Source of the DNA: Candidatus Sumerlaeota bacterium
GTDB taxonomy: Bacteria > CG03 > SLGR01
DNA: 24,448 nucleotides
Direction of reading: 5' to 3'
NCBI GenBank assembly: GCA_007136585.1
Contig: SLGR01000229.1
Coordinates: 1-24,448, forward strand
Made by a program: the position numbers and the translations under genes. The notes beneath the pieces were generated by a model. That model saw only the letters and a program-made list of their open reading frames with translations, ran no database searches and was not told where the DNA came from. The stretch's first letter is position 1. The number at the start of each line of letters is the position of its first letter. This document shows positions 21,651 through 23,632 of the stretch, in pieces.

Positions 21651-21668
21651 CATGTGCGTCCAAAATAA
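21651..21668 (+). repeat. Left terminal inverted repeat of the IS4-family element
   Basis: CATGTGCGTCCAAAATAA; pairs imperfectly with the right end at 22,922-22,939 (13 of 18). Confidence 0.7.
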
Positions 21669-21672
21669 AAAG

Positions 21673-21702
21673 TTGAAAGAAGCCTAATCACTTCTTTATA
21701 AT
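21673..21702 (+). promoter_or_regulatory. Internal transposase promoter
   Basis: TTGAAA (21,673-21,678), 18 bases, perfect TATAAT (21,697-21,702). The predicted RNA start is near 21,709, past the left arm of the leader hairpin. Confidence 0.65.
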
Positions 21703-21761
21703 GGTTTCAATGAGAAGTTGGAACCATGTCGACATCGTCGGTAAAGAAGGAGGATTAGGCT
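21681..21761 (+). promoter_or_regulatory. Nested inverted repeats that can sequester the transposase Shine-Dalgarno sequence
   Basis: Outer arms AGCCTAATC-A-CTTCTTTA (21,681-21,698) and TAAAGAAG-GAG-GATTAGGCT (21,742-21,761) pair over 17 bases with a small internal bulge. The right arm contains AAGGAGG, eight bases before the ATG. Inner arms ATGGTTTCAA and TTGGAACCAT (21,701-21,727) add a ten-pair stem with one G-U pair. RNA from the internal promoter lacks the outer left arm. Confidence 0.75.
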
Positions 21762-21769
21762 ATGAGTAA
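21701..21769 (+). CDS. Possible 22-codon leader ORF overlapping the transposase start
   Basis: ATG at 21,701 (or in frame at 21,710) opens a 22- or 19-codon frame that ends TAA at 21,767-21,769, eight bases past the first base of the transposase ATG. It has no Shine-Dalgarno sequence, but the second ATG nearly coincides with the predicted RNA start, so leaderless translation is possible. It may be only a by-product of the hairpin; coding is not supported otherwise. Confidence 0.2.
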   Translation: MVSMRSWNHVDIVGKEGGLGYE

Positions 21770-22925
21770 AAATGGTACATTATTAGGTCAAATGTTGCAA
21801 ATGTTTTCGAGATATGAATTTCAAAAATACGTAAAAGAGACCGGAACGGAATATCATTCAAAAGGCTTCAGTTCCTGGAGCCATTTTGTTTCGATGTTAT
21901 TTGGACAGCTTGCCGGCCAGGACAGTCTGCGCGGGATTGAAGCAGGCCTGGCATCACACGGTAAAAGCCTGTATCATTTCGGGATAAAGCCGGTATGCAA
22001 ATCGACATTATCATATGCAAATGAACATAGGACTCATGAACTGTTTGAGAAGTTGTTTTTCGGGATGCTGTCCAAATGCCAGCCAGTGTCTCCGAAACAT
22101 AAATTCAGGTTTAATAATCCGCTGTACAGTCTGGATGCTACCGTCATAGATTTATGCTTATCATTATATGACTGGGCAAAGTTCCGTACTACAAAAGGAG
22201 CGGTAAAACTGCATATAAAACTTAATCATGCGGGCTATATACCCACATTTGCTGTTATGACTCCCGGGAAAGATAATGATAAGAAAGTAGCGCCTACAGT
22301 TCCGTTGGACACCGGAGATGTAGTAGTCTTTGATAAAGGCTATACAAACTTTGAATGGTATAGGTCTCTAGACGATAGAGGGATATATTTTGTAACCAGG
22401 TTACAGAAGAATGCCAAGTATAAAGTTGTAGAACGAAGGACTACAAAGAAACTGAAAAATATCACGTCGGATCAAACCATTGAGTTAGCCGGTTTCTATA
22501 CGAAACAGAAATATCCGGGTAAATTACGGCGGATACGTTCTATAGATCCAGAGACAGGTACCAAAATAATTCTGCTTACAAATAATTTTAAGTGGTCAGC
22601 AAAAACCATTGCGTCGATTTATAAAGACCGCTGGCAAATTGAACTGTTTTTTAAATCATTAAAGCAGCAATTGAAAGTAAAAAGCTTTGTCGGGACATCG
22701 AAAAATGCGCTGTTATCGCAGTTATGGATCGCCTTAATAGCGTATCTGCTTTTAAGTTATTTGAAATTTAAATCAAAGTTTGCCTGGTCCATATATACGC
22801 TGTGTTCTATATTGCCGACAAACTTATTTACAAGAAGAAATCTTTGGGATTGGCTGAATGCTCCTTTTAAAGAAAAGAGCGATTCTTCAATGGAATTGTT
22901 ACAGCAGAGTTTTAGCTTTGGTTAA
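21762..22925 (+). CDS. IS4-family DDE transposase
   Basis: 387 aa, apparently intact. The N-terminus (about 1-90) fits the DUF4372 domain found ahead of many IS4-type catalytic domains (SSWSHFVSMLFGQLAGQDSL, then STLSYANEHR). Catalytic triad: Asp125 in YSLDATVIDL, Asp191 in VVFDKGYTNF, Glu294 in the YREK motif (Tyr287, Arg290, Glu294, Lys301). It cuts and pastes its own element. Start at the ATG with AAGGAGG eight bases upstream, inside the leader hairpin. The gene ends 14 bases before the IS right end. The intact triad suggests the element may still be active. Confidence 0.93.
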   Translation: MSKNGTLLGQMLQMFSRYEFQKYVKETGTEYHSKGFSSWSHFVSMLFGQLAGQDSLRGIEAGLASHGKSLYHFGIKPVCKSTLSYANEHRTHELFEKLFFGMLSKCQPVSPKHKFRFNNPLYSLDATVIDLCLSLYDWAKFRTTKGAVKLHIKLNHAGYIPTFAVMTPGKDNDKKVAPTVPLDTGDVVVFDKGYTNFEWYRSLDDRGIYFVTRLQKNAKYKVVERRTTKKLKNITSDQTIELAGFYTKQKYPGKLRRIRSIDPETGTKIILLTNNFKWSAKTIASIYKDRWQIELFFKSLKQQLKVKSFVGTSKNALLSQLWIALIAYLLLSYLKFKSKFAWSIYTLCSILPTNLFTRRNLWDWLNAPFKEKSDSSMELLQQSFSFG

Positions 22926-22939
22926 TTTGGACAGCAATG
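22922..22939 (+). repeat. Right terminal inverted repeat of the IS4-family element
   Basis: TTAATTTGGACAGCAATG; inverted partner of 21,651-21,668. Its last three bases are the ATG that opens the FkbM frame. Confidence 0.7.
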
Positions 22940-23632
22940 ATTAATAATATACATTTAAGGATGGGAACTTCCGATACATTTATATATAAAGAGATTTTTA
23001 TTGATAAGGTTTATAAAAGATCCCTGAAAAACATTTCACCAGATTCCATTATTATTGATATCGGCTCTAATATCGGGTTATCATCTCTCTTTTTTGCTCC
23101 GTATTGCAAAAAAATCATTGCTGTAGAAGCAGCGCCTGATAATTTTGAACTTTCTTTATTGAATATAAAGGCTTCAGCGTATAATAATAAGATTAGCTGC
23201 TTAAATTTTGCGTTATGGTCAACCTCTGATATATATCTTCAATTACAAAACTGTAATACTCAGAGACATGCCCCTAAAATAAAAATTTCTCCGAATAATA
23301 ACAACTCAACCGGGATTAAAACAGTAACATTAAGAGATATACTTAATTCTTATCAATTGAGTTACTGTGATTTTCTAAAAATGGATATTGAAGGAGCGGA
23401 ATTTGAAGTTTTATTAACCGACCCCGATATACTGGACAGTATCAACAGTATAATTATGGAGTACCATCAGGATATAACAAATAAATATCATTATACAGAT
23501 CTAATCAACCTAATTAAAAGTAAATATAATGAGGCTCTAATTGAGCCGGATAAAAATAATATTACAGGCCTGATATTTGCCAGCAGATATGGGTCGACAA
23601 AAAATATGGTTCCCCGGGCTGGACGGTGTTGA
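22937..23632 (+). CDS. FkbM-family SAM-dependent methyltransferase, probably 5'-truncated by the IS
   Basis: 231 aa. SAM-binding motif I is IIDIGSNIGLSSLFF (residues 39-53), the acidic end of the second strand is AVEAAP, and FLKMDIEGAEFEVL is the FkbM hallmark. Members methylate sugar or polyketide hydroxyls; the substrate here is unknown. The conserved block LRMGTSDTFIYKEIF, which usually lies some tens of residues into FkbM proteins, begins at residue 7, and the ATG is formed by the last three bases of the IS. Upstream in frame only a few IS codons precede a stop. I infer that the IS removed the native 5' end and left a frame with an accidental start. A shorter start at ATG 22,961 is possible. 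AT-rich composition, unlike the minus-strand genes, suggests transfer. Confidence 0.75.
   Translation: MINNIHLRMGTSDTFIYKEIFIDKVYKRSLKNISPDSIIIDIGSNIGLSSLFFAPYCKKIIAVEAAPDNFELSLLNIKASAYNNKISCLNFALWSTSDIYLQLQNCNTQRHAPKIKISPNNNNSTGIKTVTLRDILNSYQLSYCDFLKMDIEGAEFEVLLTDPDILDSINSIIMEYHQDITNKYHYTDLINLIKSKYNEALIEPDKNNITGLIFASRYGSTKNMVPRAGRC

Follow-up and report, generated by a model that had tools for sequence, protein, structure and literature searches.

In Tn10, an arrangement in which one arm of an inverted repeat lies in the spacer of the internal promoter reportedly protects the element from external promoters, and IS10 is additionally controlled by an antisense RNA from pOUT and by Dam. For IS50, read-through RNA is said to be poorly translated, with its start region folded. 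Such read-through protection was previously established with a handful of laboratory elements. PMC2965389 cites Davis, Simons and Kleckner (1985) for the protection of IS10 (Tn10) from external promoters, PMC13305171 cites Schulz and Reznikoff (1991) on the read-through transcripts of IS50 (Tn5), and PMC2965389 and PMC3196728 refer, for IS200, to an RNA structure that masks the transposase's ribosome-binding site (Beuzon et al. 1999).

Subgroup IS4Sa of the IS4 family is described by 5'-CA ends, a length of 1,150-1,750 bp, direct repeats of 8-10 bp and a complete YREK motif (De Palmenaer et al. 2008, PMC2266710); a word search of that paper found promoters, ribosome binding and translation unmentioned. 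The original prediction knew of no earlier description of a protective leader in this IS4 subgroup. This is consistent with the searched literature, which excludes most subscription journals and the ISfinder notes: no such leader was found described there for DUF4372/IS4Sa elements, and DUF4372 itself occurs there in one unrelated paper. The element analysed here represents a known mechanism, protection from external promoters, of which it is a new and well-supported example in an IS4 subgroup.

The insertion sequence and its ends

The window, that is, the whole stretch of 24,448 nucleotides that was analysed, contains one complete insertion sequence of 1,289 bp, which belongs to the IS4 family and is IS4Sa-like (Table 1). 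Its transposase reaches 285 bits against the NCBIfam model transpos_IS4_1 (cut-off 115), and the YREK motif of its DDE domain is complete (Y287-R290-E294-K301). In this motif, in its CA ends (CATGTGCG... / CATTGCTG...) and in its length the element is like IS4Sa. It is single-copy within its own draft genome. A second copy, split over two contig ends, is present in a genome of the same order and another family (G004), and is 99% identical to the window element over the left 118 bp and 100% over the right 119 bp. Provided that both contig ends represent one copy, it is flanked by a 9-bp direct repeat, ATATTCTAT, to be compared with the 8-10 bp of IS4Sa. The flanks of the window element lie in AT-rich DNA, where 7 of 9 positions match.

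The near-identical ends in another family (G004:C129:6455-6572 and C92:1-119; loci L110 and L108) suggest recent transfer or movement. The sole difference in the leader of that copy, T to C at 21729, adjoins the small hairpin and could add a G-C pair. Downstream, the first ATG of an open reading frame for an FkbM-type methyltransferase (22937-23632) is formed by the final three bases of the insertion sequence (22937-22939), and the element may have removed or replaced the original start of this gene. Within the transposase gene, TGCTGTCCAAAT (22066-22077) reproduces 12 bp of the right terminal repeat core (22925-22936) exactly and in inverted orientation, and a related copy lies near 21899-21915; chance and internal transposase sites are both possible.

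Table 1. Features of the insertion sequence and its leader (window coordinates).
Feature	Position	Strand	Remarks
Complete IS4-family insertion sequence	21651-22939	+	Boundaries set by second copy in genome G004
Terminal repeats			Imperfect, 5'-CA ends; CATGTGCGTCCAAAATAA / TTAATTTGGACAGCAATG
Left terminal inverted repeat	21651-21668	+	GTCCAAA motif common to most relatives
-35 element TTGAAA	21673-21678	+	Promoter scan
Left arm (anti-Shine-Dalgarno)	21681-21699	+	Within promoter spacer and first half of -10
Segment of left arm			AGCCTAATC
-10 element TATAAT	21697-21702	+	Predicted transcription start about 21709
Inner stem-loop	21701-21727	+	11 pairs including a G-U, 21701-21711 / 21717-21727
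Small hairpin CGAC-AUC-GUCG	21730-21740	+	Stem 21730-21733 / 21737-21740; in closest relatives L002, L003, L007 (A1)
Right arm	21741-21761	+	Over Shine-Dalgarno, reaches start codon
Shine-Dalgarno AAGGAGG	21747-21753	+	Read from sequence
Transposase	21762-22925	+	387 aa, DUF4372 and DDE_Tnp_1 (Pfam)
Right terminal inverted repeat	22922-22939	+	Comparison with G004 copy

Leader fold and predicted internal promoter

The leader (21673-21769) folds with -36.5 kcal/mol and a z of -7.3, and none of 200 shuffles was equally stable. In the predicted fold, the first part of the outer helix is a perfect 9-bp duplex, in which 21681-21689 pairs with 21753-21761; the second joins 21691-21699 with 21741-21749, and an internal loop takes three Shine-Dalgarno bases of the window copy (21750-21752). 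In RNA extended on its 5' side by some 90 nt of the native flank, the pair probability was 0.92-1.0 for the outer 9 bp and around 0.7 for the second 8 bp. The original prediction had placed the arms at 21681-21698 and 21742-21761, over AAGGAGG, which the fold reproduces within a base. It had also located the inner stem to within a base or two, with ten pairs in place of the eleven found here, and had not listed the small hairpin. The window leader had no match in Rfam, even at an E of 5. With 12 related loci the sole match was to a group II intron in L005, none being to leaders; this match (group-II-D1D4-6, L005 922-1181, minus strand) adjoins the related insertion sequence.

The promoter TTGAAA-18-TATAAT, already pointed out in the original prediction, has 11 of 12 consensus matches, and its score was equalled in none of 500 dinucleotide shuffles of the leader. 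Since the left arm is inside the spacer of this promoter, it cannot be in the mRNA that the element itself would make from it, and the left arm of the inner stem is likewise almost wholly 5' of the predicted start. RNA from this start (21709-21790) folds no better than chance (z of +0.55). In the window copy, the predicted cost of opening the region from the Shine-Dalgarno sequence to the start codon is 14.0 kcal/mol in the read-through form, 4.9 in the element's own RNA and 6.2 when the 5' part is shuffled.

The segment that follows the -10 box (21704-21740) is A/C-rich and similar across subgroups in L002-L081 (e.g. CGACCAA, GCCAAAC, CAACAAAAAC). Possible roles are those of a loop motif, a translation enhancer or an Hfq site.

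Retention of the arm and the promoter among relatives

Among genome contigs, 80 related loci with 41-73% transposase identity were found. They originate from Omnitrophota, Nitrospirae, Desulfobacterales and other deltaproteobacteria, Acidobacteria, Planctomycetota, Chloroflexi, Betaproteobacteria and others; no relatives were found in viral contigs. Seventy relatives were compared. Side by side, most leaders have a left arm that can pair with the Shine-Dalgarno region, and the sequence of this arm varies between subgroups (AGCCTAA, GAGCCC, CCTCC, GTTGGGTC and more). A z of -2 or lower was obtained for 62 of 71 folded leaders. The mean predicted cost of opening the Shine-Dalgarno-to-start region fell from 14.6 kcal/mol in leaders with their 5' part to 5.8 once this part was removed, and was 6.8 when it was shuffled; opening was easier without the 5' part in 59 of 60 leaders. 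By computation, both the folds of the window copy and these costs support the claim that the read-through form would be closed and the element's own RNA open.

Of 68 leaders, 62 have their predicted start beyond the left arm, just as had been proposed for the window copy; among the 53 whose promoter score is good, 52 do. In 23 of 28 representatives the -35 box begins no more than 12 nt 5' of the left arm, compared with 30% of shuffled leaders. Most relatives have the layout put forward in the original prediction. Exceptions are two decayed copies (L013 and the G015 copy) and some GC-rich leaders with a weak promoter scan, no convincing sigma-70 promoter being found in L043, L046, L062, L065 and L069. 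Three further exceptions (L066, L079, L057) have a weak outer helix or none in the predicted fold. The decayed relative in G015, L113 (G015:C48:11100-11700), has lost promoter and left arm by deletion and has a broken transposase. In simple folds, the layout with the arm in the spacer was not seen in the more distant plasmid-borne L098, L099 and L101 (about 37% identity, GTCCGGTT ends), and L097 is uninformative, its gene start overlapping an upstream IS66 gene.

These data also bear on whether transcription might start upstream of the left arm, in which case the helix would be part of the element's own mRNA too and would serve as a general brake or as a switch opened by some factor. The start sites used here are predictions, and in ISPpu9 a structured 5'-UTR in the own mRNA does block translation (PMC8450116). 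However, just 30 bp separate the element end from the left arm, the promoter scan found no other promoter-like site within the element upstream of TTGAAA-18-TATAAT, and by far the best promoter, unequalled in the shuffles, straddles the arm in the window copy and in most relatives. We therefore regard an upstream start as improbable.

Compensatory change in the outer helix

Paired changes in the arms of related copies, which the original prediction had named among its checks, were found both by an alignment-free swap test and in alignments. In the swap test, each 5' part was paired either with its own Shine-Dalgarno region or with that of another element. For 29 elements with less than 70% amino acid identity, cognate pairs had a mean of -23.3 kcal/mol versus -11.2 for swapped pairs, and the cognate mean was reached in none of 20,000 permutations. 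When the Shine-Dalgarno core was masked, the values were -11.1 and -5.9 (again 0 of 20,000), and with 8 elements below 50% identity the observed mean was likewise reached by no permutation. Two subgroup alignments gave covariation scores of 0.223 and 0.315, with 0 of 500 shuffles as high and slid partners at 0.12 or less. In A1, the window's own subgroup, 95% of the cells of the outer helix are paired and 5 of its 8 pairs show double changes. The inner stem covaries too (helix 3 of A1), yet it is less constant than the outer helix.

In a comparison of raw duplex energy with unrelated genes, 13 of 113 controls reach the window value; these controls are GC-rich and many of their starts are spurious, which makes the comparison unusable. 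The swap test and the shuffles, both of which control for composition, took its place.

An inverted repeat could also act as DNA, as a site for transposase or a host protein or as a cruciform, its overlap with the Shine-Dalgarno sequence being incidental. Mismatches in the outer helix were G-U and A-C in a proportion of 17:36, versus 608:1097 in swapped pairs, a ratio explained by composition. As G-U is not favoured over A-C beyond composition, these counts do not separate RNA from DNA, and the changes alone are no proof that the helix acts as RNA. On the other hand, the arms are wholly different between subgroups with complementarity kept, which is ill-suited to a sequence-specific protein site, and the right arm extends over Shine-Dalgarno and start region irrespective of its own sequence. 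A role as DNA is thus very unlikely, more so than an upstream start. Least credible of all is an intrinsic terminator that stops incoming transcription: 5' terminators are reported upstream of transposase genes in ISL3, IS3 and other families (PMC2965389), but here no T-run follows the helix, the terminator scan finds none there, and the coding sequence is directly 3' of the right arm.

Proposed mechanism and its implications

The leader very probably protects the transposase gene against transcription that enters from outside. RNA from a neighbouring promoter would carry both arms and would form the long outer helix together with the reinforcing inner stem. This helix would bury the Shine-Dalgarno sequence along with the nucleotides ahead of the start codon, and little transposase would be made. 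The internal promoter is presumably used, with a start near 21709, and RNA from it would begin past the left arm, because this arm is part of the promoter spacer. It would not adopt such a fold and would be translated to the extent that the internal promoter allows.

The strong compensatory change seen in dozens of elements, drawn from many phyla, indicates that the rule holds broadly within this IS4 branch. The rule offers a simple way to predict which copies of insertion sequences stay silent inside transcribed genes, and the natural arm pairs are a ready test set. More tentatively, and with the balance somewhat against it, the arm in the spacer might be an ancient design principle of the IS4 family as a whole, common to IS10 and the DUF4372/IS4Sa-like subgroup by descent or by repeated selection. 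It might have been kept despite great divergence because one and the same segment has to serve as spacer DNA for one class of transcript and, in the other class, as silencing RNA.

Comparison with known systems

The window element has the traits of the IS10 type, namely an inverted repeat with its right arm over the translation start signals and, by prediction, an internal promoter whose start comes after the left arm. A real IS10 copy, analysed as a control with the same code, gave the stem ACACATCTTGT / ACAAGATGTG and the promoter TTAAGG-18-TATGAT, with the left arm ACACATCTTGT in the spacer and paired with the start-codon region. The similarity to IS10 noted in the original prediction therefore goes as far as the placing of the arm within the promoter spacer, and in read-through RNA of either element the outer stem would conceal the translation start. 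The arm sequences of the two are unrelated. Whereas the IS10 stem lies mainly over the start codon, that of the window element covers a strong Shine-Dalgarno sequence, with an inner stem added. IS10 also has the antisense RNA from pOUT, while the promoter scan found no antisense promoter-like site in the window leader.

A simple fold of IS50 places a stem near the start, and its start region, reportedly folded in read-through RNA, resembles that of the window element; IS50 differs in its two internal promoters and its inhibitor protein. IS200 shares with the window element a transposase ribosome-binding site hidden by RNA structure; in IS200 this structure is reported alongside a second one that terminates impinging transcripts. 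It differs in its transposase class (Y1 HUH) and is unrelated in sequence.
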